IMG/VR virus record: IMGVR_UViG_3300046777_000464
Span: 1-20,261 of that record
Length of the DNA: 20,261 bases
DNA from: a virus
Direction: 5' to 3' (one strand)
This document shows, piece after piece, positions 16,055-20,261 of the stretch. The stretch's first letter is position 1. The number at the start of each line of letters is the position of its first letter. The notes beneath the pieces were generated by a model. That model was not told the origin of the DNA. It did not search any database and saw only the letters and a list, made by a program, of their open reading frames with translations. A program made the position numbers and the translations under genes.

Positions 16055-16301
16055 ATATCTATGCCGGGTGTATGGGACCCAAGTGCCTTACCGGGGGGTC
16101 TTTATATATGAGGGGGGTGGGGTAGGTCCGGTTACGATTCCGGAGTGCTTTGTCGAGACGCGCCTCGCCAAGTGGGTGTGGGATCAACGAGGTAGCCAGC
16201 ACCGGTTTTAAAAGTATTGTATCTGATGTGCGGATCATAGAGTAGCGGAGACAGGCGGGACTCCTAACTGGAATCGGGTGGTCGGGGTACGGTGGGGTCG
16301 C

Positions 16302-16317
16302 GATAAACACTGTTTAC
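16302..16317. promoter_or_regulatory. Palindromic operator-like site 1 (GATAAACACTGTTTAC)
   Basis: First of three identical 16-mers. The inverted half-sites TAAACA and TGTTTA are separated by one base. It lies 113 bases ahead of the ATG of the orphan gene at 16430, upstream of the weak promoter. Confidence 0.7.
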
Positions 16318-16336
16318 ACTTCAATTTCTACAATAC

Positions 16337-16367
16337 TTGCAATTTTTATCAGAGTGTGGTCTACTAT
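16337..16367 (+). promoter_or_regulatory. Weak putative promoter for the orphan gene
   Basis: TTGCAA (16337-16342) and TACTAT (16362-16367) are 19 bases apart, longer than the preferred 17. Both are recognisable sigma70-like boxes and sit between operator-like sites 1 and 2. No better pair is visible in the 130 bases before the gene, so the promoter may need an activator or another sigma factor. Confidence 0.3.
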
Positions 16368-16396
16368 ATCCATGCCGTGACGGACACGGCGCGACC

Positions 16397-16412
16397 GATA
16401 AACACTGTTTAC
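16397..16412. promoter_or_regulatory. Palindromic operator-like site 2 (GATAAACACTGTTTAC)
   Basis: Identical in all 16 bases to site 1, exactly 95 bp from it (about nine helical turns). It ends four bases before the AGGAG ribosome site of the 16430 gene. A protein bound here would block transcription elongation into, or initiation before, that gene. Confidence 0.7.
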
Positions 16413-16429
16413 AACTAGGAGTGACTACC

Positions 16430-16945
16430 ATGTTTTCAGAGAATCTCAAAAAGTCTGTACGCAACGCGATTGCAGCGGAGAAAACCACGGACAACAAATG
16501 GAAGGCCGTGGGCGATATTGCCAAGATGGAGTTTGAGAGCGCGGCCGCGCTCGAATCGATTCGGCCTCAATTCCTAACCGAAGTCATCTATCCCGCGATG
16601 GGCGATGAAGCCGTCAAAATCATCAAAGCCGAGTTGCCGCGCAAGGGCTCGAAGGACTGGAATGCCGCCAGTGCCGATCAACAGGCCGCGTGGGCGGCCG
16701 TGAAAGATGCCAAGAAAACCGTTCGCGGCGAGGGGTCAGTCTACTTTGGGCGCGTGGTTGAGTACGGATGGCCGACACCTAAATCGGACGACAAAGGCGC
16801 GCAACGGACTCGTGACCTAAAAACACGTTTCAACGAAGAATTGGCCGCGCTAATCAAGGCCGCGCAAAATGCAGAGACCCCGCCGTTCGACACCGGCATG
16901 GTGATCGGCCACCTCGAAGCGGCTCTGAAGTACGTAAACAAGTAA
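16430..16945 (+). CDS. Orphan 171-aa protein, possibly regulatory; function unknown
   Basis: Start ATG 16430 has an AGGAG site 8 bases upstream; an open frame from 16337 would extend it but has no ribosome site and crosses operator-like site 2. The 171-residue protein is soluble and mainly helical: MFSENLKKSVRNAIAAEKTT, NKWKAVGDIAKMEFESAAAL, FLTEVIYPAMGDEAVKIIKA, a Lys/Ala/Asp-rich middle, VYFGRVVEYGWPTPKSDDKG, and a C-terminal helix pair (FNEELAALIKAAQNAE). I do not recognise a domain and see no clear helix-turn-helix. It is a one-gene unit flanked by two operator-like sites before and one after, and closed by its own terminator, which suggests autoregulation. Its codons (many GCC, GCG) look richer in G+C than neighbouring intergenic DNA. 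Confidence 0.8.
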   Translation: MFSENLKKSVRNAIAAEKTTDNKWKAVGDIAKMEFESAAALESIRPQFLTEVIYPAMGDEAVKIIKAELPRKGSKDWNAASADQQAAWAAVKDAKKTVRGEGSVYFGRVVEYGWPTPKSDDKGAQRTRDLKTRFNEELAALIKAAQNAETPPFDTGMVIGHLEAALKYVNK

Positions 16946-16959
16946 CCACCCGCCGAGTG

Positions 16960-16989
16960 ACCCGCGCCGCGAGGCGCGGGTTATTTTTT
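16960..16989 (+). terminator. Strong intrinsic terminator
   Basis: A perfect 9-bp stem ACCCGCGCC/GGCGCGGGT closes a GCGA tetraloop, followed by TATTTTTT. It lies 15 bases after the stop of the 16430 gene and isolates it from the downstream operon. Confidence 0.95.
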
Positions 16990-17023
16990 GGCCCGAACTA
17001 TCATGCCTGTAGCAGCAGGTTCA

Positions 17024-17039
17024 GATAAACACTGTTTAC
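17024..17039. promoter_or_regulatory. Palindromic operator-like site 3 (GATAAACACTGTTTAC)
   Basis: The third identical 16-mer, 34 bases after the terminator of the 16430 gene. It has no promoter or start codon immediately next to it, so its role may be architectural or linked to the repeats that follow. Confidence 0.65.
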
Positions 17040-17131
17040 CGAATCGGGCCGCGCTTGGTCTTGAACAACCGGTACGCGCTGTTCGCAGCGTACCGATCCA
17101 AATCGAGCCTGTCAAGCCCTGTTTCTGTAGT

Positions 17132-17186
17132 CCGTTGTAGACACTGGATGTATCCATTGTAGGCATTGTAGGCACCCCTACAACGG
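17132..17186. repeat. Inverted repeat enclosing a tandem 9-mer
   Basis: CCGTTGTAG (17132-17140) and CTACAACGG (17178-17186) form perfect 9-bp inverted arms. Inside lie two head-to-tail ATTGTAGGC copies (17156-17164, 17165-17173). The core TTGTAG/CTACAA occurs four times here and again at 16328, 17426 and 17444. This resembles an iteron cluster beside the AT-rich tract. Confidence 0.6.
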
Positions 17187-17390
17187 CTAAGTGCTTGATT
17201 CTGAAAGGGAAAAAGGCATTTTTATAGGTATAATGTATGAATGTATCTATTTTTATATCTACTCGGAAATTATTTTTCTAAACACGTATTAAATGGTTTT
17301 ATTTTTAATTTAGTGTCGTCGAGGAAAGTGTCTGGGCAGCTTTCGAACCCTACATTTCGTGCATCGCATGACATTTAGCGTCGTAAATCA

Positions 17391-17419
17391 TTGACTTTTA
17401 AGGCATTTTGTTTTAGAAT
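17391..17419 (+). promoter_or_regulatory. Strong sigma70-like promoter for the small-gene operon
   Basis: TTGACT (17391-17396), a 17-base spacer and TAGAAT (17414-17419) match sigma70 consensus at five of six positions each with optimal spacing. Transcription should begin near 17426, giving a 70-base leader that contains operator-like site 4 just ahead of the first gene. Confidence 0.75.
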
Positions 17420-17463
17420 AAGTCTCTACAATAGATACATTGCCTACAACGAGGCAGCATTTA

Positions 17464-17479
17464 GTAAACACCTGTTTAC
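17464..17479. promoter_or_regulatory. Palindromic operator-like site 4 (GTAAACACCTGTTTAC)
   Basis: Perfect 7-bp inverted half-sites GTAAACA/TGTTTAC around a 2-base centre. It lies about 40 bases downstream of the predicted start of transcription and 8 bases before the AGGAG of the 17499 gene, a place where a bound repressor would act as a roadblock. Confidence 0.7.
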
Positions 17480-17498
17480 ATCTTTATAGGAGTGCAAC

Positions 17499-17708
17499 AT
17501 GAGCAGTGACTTTTCTTGTGTGCTTTGTGACTCGGCGATCAACCAGCACCGATACGAGATTGGCTACACGACCTGCAAGCCGTGTGGCGAGAAGCAAGCC
17601 CGACAACGCAAGCACACCATCGTCCCCATGCACAAGAGCAACTACATCGTGGTGACCAACCGCGAGGATCTAAAAGGTATCAACAACAAGGGAGGCTTCT
17701 ACCGATGA
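17499..17708 (+). CDS. Small zinc-ribbon conserved phage protein
   Basis: A 69-residue protein with two CxxC pairs (C7/C10 and C26/C29), likely binding one zinc. A conserved basic segment follows: ARQRKHTIVPMHKSNYIVVT and REDLKGINNKGG. I recognise 'C..C.......Y.lG...C..CGe..Ar.rkhtiVPmhKSNY..vt....L.g.n.KGg' from many tailed phages infecting different bacteria; its function is unknown to me. The zinc ribbon and arginines would suit DNA or RNA binding. ATG 17499 has AGGAG 8 bases upstream, and the stop overlaps the next start (ATGA). Confidence 0.8.
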   Translation: MSSDFSCVLCDSAINQHRYEIGYTTCKPCGEKQARQRKHTIVPMHKSNYIVVTNREDLKGINNKGGFYR

Positions 17709-17854
17709 AGGCTTTGATTGCAGTTTGTAGTGACGGAGCGCGGCACTTCCTGATGGTTGTGCCCAGTTCATTCGACACCCAAGCATGGGCAGAGTCTCGC
17801 CGTGAGGCGTTTGCACTCTTGGAAATTATCCGAATCTTGGAGGACGAGCGATGA
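17705..17854 (+). CDS. 49-aa hypothetical protein
   Basis: ATG 17705 forms a four-base ATGA overlap with the stop of the zinc-ribbon gene, so translation is probably coupled. The longer frame from 17582 lies inside the zinc-ribbon gene and is rejected. The 49 residues begin with a hydrophobic strand (MKALIAVCSDGARHFLMVVP) and end in a helix with Glu/Arg (RREAFALLEIIRILEDER). This could be a very small alpha/beta protein. I recognise no family. The next gene again overlaps by ATGA, which supports that this is a real member of the operon. Confidence 0.6.
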   Translation: MKALIAVCSDGARHFLMVVPSSFDTQAWAESRREAFALLEIIRILEDER

Positions 17855-18054
17855 CCGAGAGACAGAGAGTTTTTATAGTGGAAACGTGGCACGACGATAA
17901 CGTGCTGACATTTCTCTCCGTGCATAGCACAAGGGAATCTGCTGAAGCAGCAGTGCCGCTATACATGGCGGATTACAGACTGGGTGGCAGCGAAAAAGAT
18001 TACGTCATTAAGTCGTTGCCGTTGGACTGGACAATTTATGACGAGGAAGAGTGA
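17851..18054 (+). CDS. 67-aa hypothetical protein
   Basis: Starts at ATG 17851, overlapping the previous stop by four bases, with GAGGACGAG upstream as a ribosome site. The protein is acidic: FIVETWHDDNVLTFLSVHST, AEAAVPLYMADYRLGGSEKD, YVIKSLPLDWTIYDEEE. The pattern of a strand, a helix containing 'stresAeaav..y', and a final strand could be a small ferredoxin-like fold, but this is a visual guess. Function is unknown. It is third in a row of coupled small genes. Confidence 0.65.
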   Translation: MTERQRVFIVETWHDDNVLTFLSVHSTRESAEAAVPLYMADYRLGGSEKDYVIKSLPLDWTIYDEEE

Positions 18055-18233
18055 TGACCCAACCCAAACCCATAGCCGACCTGATCGGCGCGTTGAAAGA
18101 CTTACTGACATTGCCAACCGTTCAGATGACCGGAGACGCGGAGCGCATGAATCGTGCCGTGAAGCACCGAGCGAGGCAGTTAATCGAAGAGTACGAAAAG
18201 TTGGCCAAGCCTATGCCAGATAAAATTACGTAA
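18054..18233 (+). CDS. 59-aa helical hypothetical protein
   Basis: I choose ATG 18054, which shares one base with the previous stop (TGATG) and has GAGGAAGAG right upstream; GTG 18051 in the same frame is the alternative. The protein, MTQPKPIADLIGALKDLLTL, RMNRAVKHRARQLIEEYEKL, reads as two amphipathic helices joined by a short loop (PTVQMTGDAE). No known motif is seen. Two-helix hairpins of this size can be DNA-binding or regulatory, but nothing here shows that. Operator-like site 5 begins directly before its stop codon. Confidence 0.6.
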   Translation: MTQPKPIADLIGALKDLLTLPTVQMTGDAERMNRAVKHRARQLIEEYEKLAKPMPDKIT

Positions 18234-18245
18234 ACAGATGTTTAC
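18230..18245. promoter_or_regulatory. Palindromic operator-like site 5 (GTAAACAGATGTTTAC)
   Basis: Perfect 7-bp inverted half-sites around a 2-base centre. It overlaps the stop codon of the 59-aa gene and lies 29 bases before the ATG at 18275, where the operon has its only gap between genes. A TAAAAT at 18221-18226 could be a -10 box, but no -35 box is seen at a suitable distance. Confidence 0.65.
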
Positions 18246-18274
18246 ACAAGTGCAAACAAAAATGGGAATCGAAA

Positions 18275-18568
18275 ATGAAAAATGACTGGGATGACGAGTT
18301 GGAAAACGACTCAGGCTTACACGACCCCGACCAGTTTGAAATTCTGGAAGCCCTGTACCTGCAAGAGCGTACGGCTAACGACCAACTGATCGAGCGACTA
18401 AAACAACTGACCCAACTAGACGCCGATGACGCGCTACGTGGAATCCGTGACCTACTTGAAGATGGCTATATGTATTTCGGTGAGCGTAGGGCATGGGATA
18501 GGCCAAGCGTAGACAGTCTGGTGGGTGACGTTCGGCAACTACAACTATTCGAGGAGACAGTGCAATGA
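18275..18568 (+). CDS. 97-aa acidic hypothetical protein
   Basis: A 97-residue, strongly acidic protein (MKNDWDDELENDSGLHDPDQ) followed by a helix (EILEALYLQERTANDQLIER), KQLTQLDADDALRGIRDLLE, DGYMYFGERRAWDRPSVDSL, and a helical end. The upstream ribosome site is weak (GGGA), in contrast to its neighbours, and operator-like site 5 lies just ahead. It looks like a small coiled-coil protein of unknown function. High negative charge suggests, but does not show, a DNA mimic or an inhibitor. The stop overlaps the next ATG by four bases (ATGA), so it is coupled to the 289-aa gene. Confidence 0.65.
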   Translation: MKNDWDDELENDSGLHDPDQFEILEALYLQERTANDQLIERLKQLTQLDADDALRGIRDLLEDGYMYFGERRAWDRPSVDSLVGDVRQLQLFEETVQ

Positions 18569-19434
18569 CTGTAGTTAATCGGTTCACATACGAAGGTGCG
18601 AAGCAGCACTACCACAGCGTGACCCCGATCCGAGGACGCGCCACGGACATTAGACCCTGCGGAACCCGTCGGAAAGACTGGATGCAGGTATGTAGGACAA
18701 TCGAGAACGGTGAGGAATCCTATTCATACAAGTTGTACCAGACGCATTGCGTACGCTACCTGCCCGAGACCGAGACCCGTCCTGAGTCTGTCGAGATTAA
18801 GTGTGGCAGTTGGCATACCCCGAGTACCGCTGACTTCATCACCATGACTTCACCATTCCAGTGCGTGAAGCGTAAGAACAGGTTGTGGATTTCGGTTAAC
18901 GACGCCGAGTTGGGATACATCCATATGCCCCTCGATAGCCACGTACCGGTACGACTGTTTCGTATGCCAGATATGCGGTGGAGGGTTGAAGATCCGACAT
19001 TCTTTAAGCGTGCGATCAACAAGGATCGTGCGAAGGCAAGCCGACTGACCATCAAACCGTTCCTCGATTGGGTAAACATGTTTATGAAATTGTCGGACGG
19101 TTGGGTGACTCGTTCGTTCTACGAGGATGCCGACGAGCGCATCTTGCAGCGTGGGAAGTACGAAGGTATCAGTAAGAATCCCGCAGCATACCTATCGACC
19201 GATGATCCAGACATGTACCCCGTGATCCTGCGAAACATATTGGGTACGAACATACGCACATCACAGTATCGTCAGGTAAACAATAAGTACGAGTGCCAGT
19301 ACGATGCAAAGCGTGTGAAGGCAGCGATCCTAAAACTGCACGACACTCGTGCGGATATCTATGACATCGTGAAGGTGACTGCCGAGCCGACCATCATGGG
19401 TAACGTGGTCGATAGACCGAGACTGAACCGCTAA
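18565..19434 (+). CDS. 289-aa conserved phage protein, function unknown
   Basis: A 289-residue protein, longest complete gene of the top-strand module; its ATG overlaps the preceding stop (ATGA), and GGAG lies about 8 bases upstream. Landmarks are YHSVTPIRGRATDIRPCGTR, YKLYQTHCVRYLPETE, EIKCGSWHTPSTADFITMTS, NRLWISV, RAINKDRAKASRLTIKPFLD, and a C-terminal part with AAILKLHDTRADIYDIVKV. The elements 'tpirGR..d.rPlG.Rr....i' and 'y.c.ryl.t....' with 'W.T.sTa.FI' are shared by proteins in many phages of aquatic hosts; I know of no assigned function. Motifs of known polymerases, nucleases or methylases are not seen. It is directly upstream of the MoxR-like ATPase. Confidence 0.75.
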   Translation: MTVVNRFTYEGAKQHYHSVTPIRGRATDIRPCGTRRKDWMQVCRTIENGEESYSYKLYQTHCVRYLPETETRPESVEIKCGSWHTPSTADFITMTSPFQCVKRKNRLWISVNDAELGYIHMPLDSHVPVRLFRMPDMRWRVEDPTFFKRAINKDRAKASRLTIKPFLDWVNMFMKLSDGWVTRSFYEDADERILQRGKYEGISKNPAAYLSTDDPDMYPVILRNILGTNIRTSQYRQVNNKYECQYDAKRVKAAILKLHDTRADIYDIVKVTAEPTIMGNVVDRPRLNR

Positions 19435-19444
19435 TCAATTAGCG
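19429..19444. repeat. Short palindrome over a stop codon
   Basis: CGCTAAT and ATTAGCG flank a CA centre, spanning the TAA of the 289-aa gene. Without a T-run it would be only a weak terminator, and 7-bp palindromes arise by chance fairly often. Confidence 0.35.
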
Positions 19445-19460
19445 AACCAAACAGCATCAA

Positions 19461-19476
19461 GTAAACACGTGTTTAT
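19461..19476. promoter_or_regulatory. Palindromic operator-like site 6 (GTAAACACGTGTTTAT)
   Basis: Inverted half-sites TAAACA/TGTTTA around CG. It ends six bases before the -35 box of the promoter at 19483, an upstream location expected for an activator or for a repressor that loops, and different from the roadblock position of site 4. Confidence 0.7.
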
Positions 19477-19482
19477 AAATGC

Positions 19483-19511
19483 TTGACTTGTGACCCGAGA
19501 TCAAATATAAT
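19483..19511 (+). promoter_or_regulatory. Consensus sigma70-like promoter for the ATPase gene
   Basis: TTGACT (19483-19488), a spacer of 17 bases and a perfect TATAAT (19506-19511). Transcription would begin near 19518, leaving a short leader of about 30 bases with GGAG eight bases before the ATG at 19549. Confidence 0.85.
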
Positions 19512-19548
19512 ATCTCTAACAGTTAGATAAACAACAACGGAGTGCATC

Positions 19549-20261
19549 ATGAGCGTGATTAATTTTGGTAAGACGATTTCCCTATCCGAGTTCACGACTG
19601 CCGTGTGCGAGGTAGGCCACCTAGTTACCTTGGTGGGTGAAGGCGAGATGGGTATTGGCAAGTCTGCCGTACTCAAAGAGATCGCCAAGCGTATGCCGAC
19701 ACATCTACCTGCGTATATCGACTGCACATTGCTAGACCTAGGTGACTTTGCCCTGCCGTATACGGTCGAGGAGAACGGTATACGTGTGACTAGGTTCGCA
19801 CCTAATGCGCGGTTCAGATTCCACGAGGGTAAGCCCGTCATCATCATGCTTGACGAGATTGGCAAGGCGATGGGTGCGGTCAAGAACGTATTGATGACCC
19901 TGATGAACGAGTTCCGTATCGGTGATCACTACTTGCCCGAGGGGAGTATTGTCTTTGCGACAACTAACCTAGGCATGGAGAATCTGGGTGACCTGCTGCA
20001 ACCACATCAACGCAATCGTGTGTGTTCGGTACGTATCCGCAAGCCTGATGCTGACGAGTGGATCAACGACTATGCACTGAGTAACGGGATCGTGCCTGAG
20101 ATCATCGCGTGGGTTAAGCAGTTCCCGCATTGTCTTGCAGCGGGTGACGACCAGTCACAGAAGGACAATCCGTACATTAACTTCATTGGTCGAGCGAACA
20201 CGGGCGCGGTTGTCACACCACGTAGTCTTGAGAAGGCGAGTCACATCGCACAGCGTAGGTC
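19549..20261 (+). CDS. MoxR-like AAA+ ATPase (3' end beyond window)
   Basis: At least 237 residues are visible; no stop occurs before the right edge. Walker A is GEGEMGIGKS (residues 30-39), Walker B is VIIMLDEIGKA (97-107), sensor 1 is VFATTN (135-140), and HQRNRV (153-158) occupies the arginine-finger region. The segment between, with LLDLGDFALPY and RFAPNARFRFHE, is typical of the MoxR branch, as in chaperone-like ATPases that act with von Willebrand-factor-A partners. In phages such genes are usually followed by a VWA-domain gene; here that position is beyond the window. Its target in infection is unknown. It has its own consensus promoter with operator-like site 6 upstream, unlike the coupled genes before it. 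Confidence 0.85.
   Translation, partial: MSVINFGKTISLSEFTTAVCEVGHLVTLVGEGEMGIGKSAVLKEIAKRMPTHLPAYIDCTLLDLGDFALPYTVEENGIRVTRFAPNARFRFHEGKPVIIMLDEIGKAMGAVKNVLMTLMNEFRIGDHYLPEGSIVFATTNLGMENLGDLLQPHQRNRVCSVRIRKPDADEWINDYALSNGIVPEIIAWVKQFPHCLAAGDDQSQKDNPYINFIGRANTGAVVTPRSLEKASHIAQRR

Follow-up and report, generated by a model that had tools for sequence, protein, structure and literature searches.

In this phage contig, the first part of the rightward early module carries repeated copies of a short inverted repeat built from the half-sites TAAACA and TGTTTA, raising the question of what acts at these sites and whether they belong to a single regulatory system. The window analyzed here is the complete 20,261-bp IMG/VR record; its structural genes (terminase, portal, capsid) form a leftward module, and a MoxR-like ATPase is encoded in a rightward one.

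Operator sites in the window and in relatives

A preliminary description of this DNA listed six palindromic sites, at 16302, 16397, 17024, 17464, 18230, and 19461, each of which proved exact at its coordinate. A search of the window for TAAACA and TGTTTA separated by a gap of 0–5 bp recovered a seventh that had been overlooked, operator 6 (Table 1). Exact TAAACA-N0-3-TGTTTA sites thus number seven, versus a mean of 0.001 over 1000 dinucleotide shuffles (maximum 1), which upholds the earlier judgment that their conservation is beyond chance. Also upheld was the reported absence of full copies from the 16 kb of bottom-strand genes, where neither exact nor one-mismatch palindromes were found. The statement that all sites occupy noncoding DNA or gene ends ahead of top-strand genes fails for operator 6, which is intragenic. 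Operator 3 has no convincing ORF directly downstream. Operator 3 has a counterpart at the equivalent place in relatives, and the counterpart of operator 1 in relatives lies directly 5' of a TTGACA early promoter. Operator 4 is ~45 bp downstream of the predicted transcription start. The ATPase leader contains a single half-site (GATAAACAAC, 19524–19533) just before its Shine-Dalgarno (SD) sequence, at the spot where other genes have a full palindrome, and this half-site is conserved in relatives. Scanning the window for Rfam families and tRNAs returned no matches.

Table 1. Positions of operator sites and neighboring features in the window.
Feature	Sequence	Position	Strand	Remarks
Operator 1	GATAAACACTGTTTAC	16302..16317	.	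5' of first early gene; exact match
Operator 2	GATAAACACTGTTTAC	16397..16412	.	ATG of ORF 16430 follows after 17 nt
E1, first early gene (171 aa)		16430..16945	+	All-helical model
Terminator-like hairpin after E1		16967..16979	+	Consensus match; such hairpins no more numerous than in shuffles
Operator 3	GATAAACACTGTTTAC	17024..17039	.	~40 bp beyond E1 terminator-like hairpin
Sigma-70-like promoter	TTGACT-17-TAGAAT	17391..17419	+	Consensus match; upstream of operator 4
Operator 4	GTAAACACCTGTTTAC	17464..17479	.	ATG of ORF 17499 follows after 19 nt
Operator 5	GTAAACAGATGTTTAC	18230..18245	.	Overlaps stop of ORF 18054; spacer 2
Operator 6	GTAAACATGTTTAT	19072..19085	.	Abutting half-sites (spacer 0), inside ORF 18565-19434
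Operator 7	GTAAACACGTGTTTAT	19461..19476	.	Ends 6 bp 5' of ATPase promoter -35 box
ATPase promoter	TTGACT-17-TATAAT	19483..19511	+	Conserved in close relatives
MoxR-like AAA ATPase gene		19549..20261	+	Cut by window end; query used to find relatives

The ATPase was used to fetch 34 relatives, and the TAAACA palindrome recurs 4–14 times in 27 of these, counting exact and one-mismatch copies. Most of these sites fall in a stretch of ~9 kb at the beginning of the rightward early module; for example, all 12 exact sites of G004 (63 kb) lie at 7.6–16.6 kb, and all 10 of G006 (67 kb) at 55.3–64.3 kb. Many begin at the upstream gene's stop codon or overlap it, and the next start codon follows their end by 12–18 nt; some recur at fixed intragenic places. 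An SD sequence and start codon were present within 45 nt of 94 of the 155 context-distinct TAAACA sites, compared to 34% of random positions, and the gap from these 94 sites to the start codon has a median of 16 (quartiles 13–18). The conserved positions at gene ends and starts and at fixed intragenic places indicate that the arrangement is conserved, and not the motif alone. The shuffled-sequence control and the scan of relatives proposed in the preliminary description were thus both carried out, and the array withstood both. Its further proposal, that one dimeric regulator controls the top-strand module, is consistent with a dedicated and strongly conserved operator set.

The MoxR-like ATPase forms a near-constant trio with a DUF2201 VWA/metallopeptidase-like protein and a DUF3150-like protein in the window phage and its relatives. 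No relative emerged when genome contigs were scanned for a host or prophage. Among isolated phages, the ATPase, VWA, and terminase proteins give only distant matches (<60%) and the MarR-like protein discussed below gives none; no description of this array was found in open-licence papers.

The suggestion that spacers of 1 and 2 bases represent two regulators was not supported. In front of the VWA gene, the orthologous site has a spacer of 0, 1, or 2 depending on the relative, with unchanged half-sites, and the site ahead of ORF 18275 has a spacer of 2 in the window versus 0 in the close relative L004. Because spacers of 0–2 are exchanged at orthologous positions around fixed half-sites, the classes appear to be variants of one site. 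The spacer bases, and only these, exhibit an orientation bias, with C over G at 32:4, GA over TC at 28:3, and CA over TG at 14:0, counts that are inflated by shared ancestry.

Site placement and mode of action

The sites are predicted to be operators at which a single homodimeric repressor, encoded by the phage, shuts off the rightward early module, a reading to which we give a probability of about 0.65. Bound dimers would prevent initiation from the early and ATPase promoters, while at promoter-less sites ahead of genes they would serve as roadblocks to elongating RNA polymerase, as the stoperators of phage L5 do. The repressor would be encoded in or after the module, which would hence repress itself, and the outcome would be early shut-off or immunity. 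The immunity analogy may not extend to lysogeny, since no tyrosine integrase was found in the four long relatives G004, G006, G011, and G016.

Promoter occlusion together with roadblocks elsewhere would explain every placement seen in the sequences. Of the 155 TAAACA sites, 19 (12%, versus 3.5% of random positions) have a promoter of 10/12 or better nearby, with site centers at -18, -46 to -67, or +29 to +55, and most sites have no recognizable promoter nearby. At the ATPase promoter, the operator lies upstream of the -35 box in the window, G001, L004, and G004, and within the 17-bp -35/-10 spacer in L022, L025, and L027, a difference in position that favors repression. The tolerance of spacers from 0 to 3 bp is unusual for a rigid dimer, and it counts against a single homodimeric repressor.

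The same placements bear on other readings of the palindromes. Were these activator-binding sites or promoter elements that turn on each early gene, their short and fairly constant distance to the start codon would be accounted for, as would the centering of some sites, that at 19461 in the window included, near -50 of a good promoter. This reading is nonetheless improbable, given that the site at the ATPase promoter also occurs within the -35/-10 spacer, that other promoter-linked sites lie downstream at +29 to +55, that most sites lack -10 and -35 elements and some are intragenic, and that L006, L007, L008, and others keep the TTGACT-17-TATAAT ATPase promoter without an adjacent site. It is rather less probable that a host regulator binds the sites, each phage lineage following the motif of its host. 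Motifs do differ by lineage, no phage regulator with matching specificity is common to all array-bearing genomes, and a precedent is available in the reported control of phage genes by the host regulator CtrA in phages of Alphaproteobacteria (PMC9437464). The dense arrays, however, are restricted to one phage module, and many switches of host regulator would be needed to account for such different palindromes in a single phage group.

RNA hairpins formed before the ribosome-binding site, governing how each early gene is translated or processed, are a decidedly poor prospect, even though the sites are immediately 5' of SD sequences and variation in loop length is harmless to a hairpin. At -1/+1 the flanking bases are most commonly A..C (54 of 151), a combination unable to pair, zero-spacer sites leave a stem of only four pairs, the core half-sites do not covary, and sites upstream of or inside promoters are outside the transcripts. 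The frequent nonpairing flank and the sites inside or upstream of promoters argue for action at the level of DNA rather than RNA. Least probable of all is a role in partition or as a replication origin; palindrome arrays can act as centromere sites in phage-plasmids, but the placement of these sites is linked to gene starts and promoters.

Candidate regulators and lineage-specific palindromes

The predicted regulator gene lies outside the window, and by synteny the candidate genes are ~4–5 kb past its end. The best candidate for the predicted repressor is a 99-aa MarR-fold protein (G004 16121-16420), whose AlphaFold model (pLDDT 93) has MarR proteins as its top PDB matches (E about 1e-3) and whose score against Pfam MarR_2 is 15.1 bits, under the 27-bit cut-off. 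Its recognition helix is a near-constant S/C-F-A/G-T-I-H-A/E-R in the TAAACA contigs that carry the gene, and reads SxATTH in TTAACA lineages and TINKR or TLNKR in TCTACA and ATAACA lineages. This covariation of helix and motif is consistent with binding but confounded by phylogeny, and a Mantel test of the two with phylogeny controlled was not significant (partial r -0.22). The gene was not detected in the near-full-length array contigs G028 (TAAACA), G019 (TACTGTC), G033/G034 (CTAACA), and G016 (GTAAC). Together with the Mantel test, these genomes suggest that the MarR-like protein may be the regulator in some lineages only, or in none. For the lineage of the window, sequence and model make it a putative regulator at somewhat less than even odds. 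G019 (L176-L178) retains ten intact TACTGTC sites with no detectable MarR-like gene, and may have lost the repressor or use a different regulator.

Other proteins fared less well. A 77-aa Cro-like helix-turn-helix (HTH) protein (G004 28846-29079 = L039:9846-10079, and orthologs), whose gene neighbors those for an SSB-like protein and a primase, occurs in the near-full-length array genomes compared; it was rejected as the specificity determinant because identical recognition helices accompany different motifs (L145 TACTGTC and L110 TTAACA; G028 TAAACA and L133 TATACAC). An 80-aa wHTH protein encoded next to the MarR-like gene is retained as a weak candidate, its helix varying within one motif class. 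The DUF3310 protein was dismissed because L027 and L028, both of which have TAAACA sites, lack its HTH. E1 was set aside as well, having diverged strongly in L022/L026 with the motif unchanged; its model has no fold match in the PDB and no known DNA-binding fold, and its relatives occur in TAAACA, TTAACA, TTAAAC, and TAAACC lineages. A 60-aa ribbon-helix-helix-like gene (L145:11197-11400 and relatives) adjoins the VWA gene mainly in lineages with GTC-N-GAC operators, a distribution that led to its rejection for the window; its product may, on sequence grounds, be a candidate regulator of the GTC-type arrays.

Relatives without TAAACA have TTTCTACA, GATAACA, and GTAAC palindromes at similar places, and GTTAAGTC is another palindrome of more distant relatives with the same layout. 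A wider sample obtained through the VWA protein, the best 80 of 576 relatives, contained TTAACA, TTAAAC, TAAACC, TACTGTC, AATGTC, TTAAGTC, TATAGTC, CTAACA, and other types, although several of its loci, e.g., L127, L130, and L170, have no array. More than ten palindrome types are thus found among relatives, the consensus being lineage-specific, and their gaps to start codons are similar to those of the window. Sites per locus reach 14 in TAAACA loci and 19 in G034 (CTAACA). In L035 (12.3 kb), GTTAGCC-N4-GGCTAAC occurs about a dozen times within called genes and not ahead of them. Tentatively, and at less than even odds, these arrays may constitute a widespread palindromic, spacing-tolerant operator system found in the early operon across a large and mostly uncultured phage group, in which specificity would turn over between lineages, the regulator would sometimes be replaced by an unrelated protein, and the layout would be re-created at the same gene starts.

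Comparison with known systems

The closest parallel is provided by the stoperators of L5-clade (Cluster A) mycobacteriophages, which are numerous short repressor sites distributed genome-wide, mostly away from promoters, with a few true operators in early promoters, a lineage-specific consensus, and mostly one orientation relative to transcription; the sites are 13 bp and asymmetric, the repressor is monomeric, and the phages are temperate (PMC6550527, PMC9283540). The present sites are likewise numerous, dispersed, mostly distant from promoters, and lineage-specific in consensus. They differ in being inverted repeats with a 0–3 bp spacer, in their confinement to the early module, in an orientation bias limited to the spacer bases, and in the lack of a detected tyrosine integrase in the four long relatives. 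Because the defining asymmetric site is missing, the array is not classed as a Cluster A stoperator system, and elongation block is proposed by analogy; a repressor and roadblock array resembling stoperators would fit the data.

MarR-family repressors such as MepR, MarR, and ST1710 are winged-helix dimers that act on short palindromes, and the candidate's model matches MarR structures best; unlike these proteins of about 140 aa, the candidate has 99 aa and falls below the Pfam MarR_2 cut-off, its DNA binding being predicted. The Nostoc cyanophages A-1 and N-1 contain dozens of intergenic motif copies that their authors suggest are possible stoperators (PMC4916379); judged by the published description, those repeats are asymmetric and of mixed orientation, unlike the palindromes here. 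Cyanophage MinM2 (L211, OQ594354) shares the MoxR-DUF3150-VWA module but has a different palindrome, with 18 GTTCAG-N1-CTGAAC sites at 4793-43560, many of which are followed by an annotated start codon exactly 22–23 bp later. A search of 45 kb of MinM2 for the candidate regulators detected none of them, and the terminase-query matches of Pag-Yong1 and Pra-JY27 are identical to that of MinM2.

Mycobacteriophages supply the best-known cases of stoperator-type control, and a similar design with palindromic sites is found here in many phage lineages and a sequenced cyanophage. If the divergence in specificity reflects co-evolution of regulator and operator, these contigs would represent a natural experiment in which arrays of a dozen or more sites switch sequence together, and would also inform our understanding of regulators that accept variable half-site spacing.
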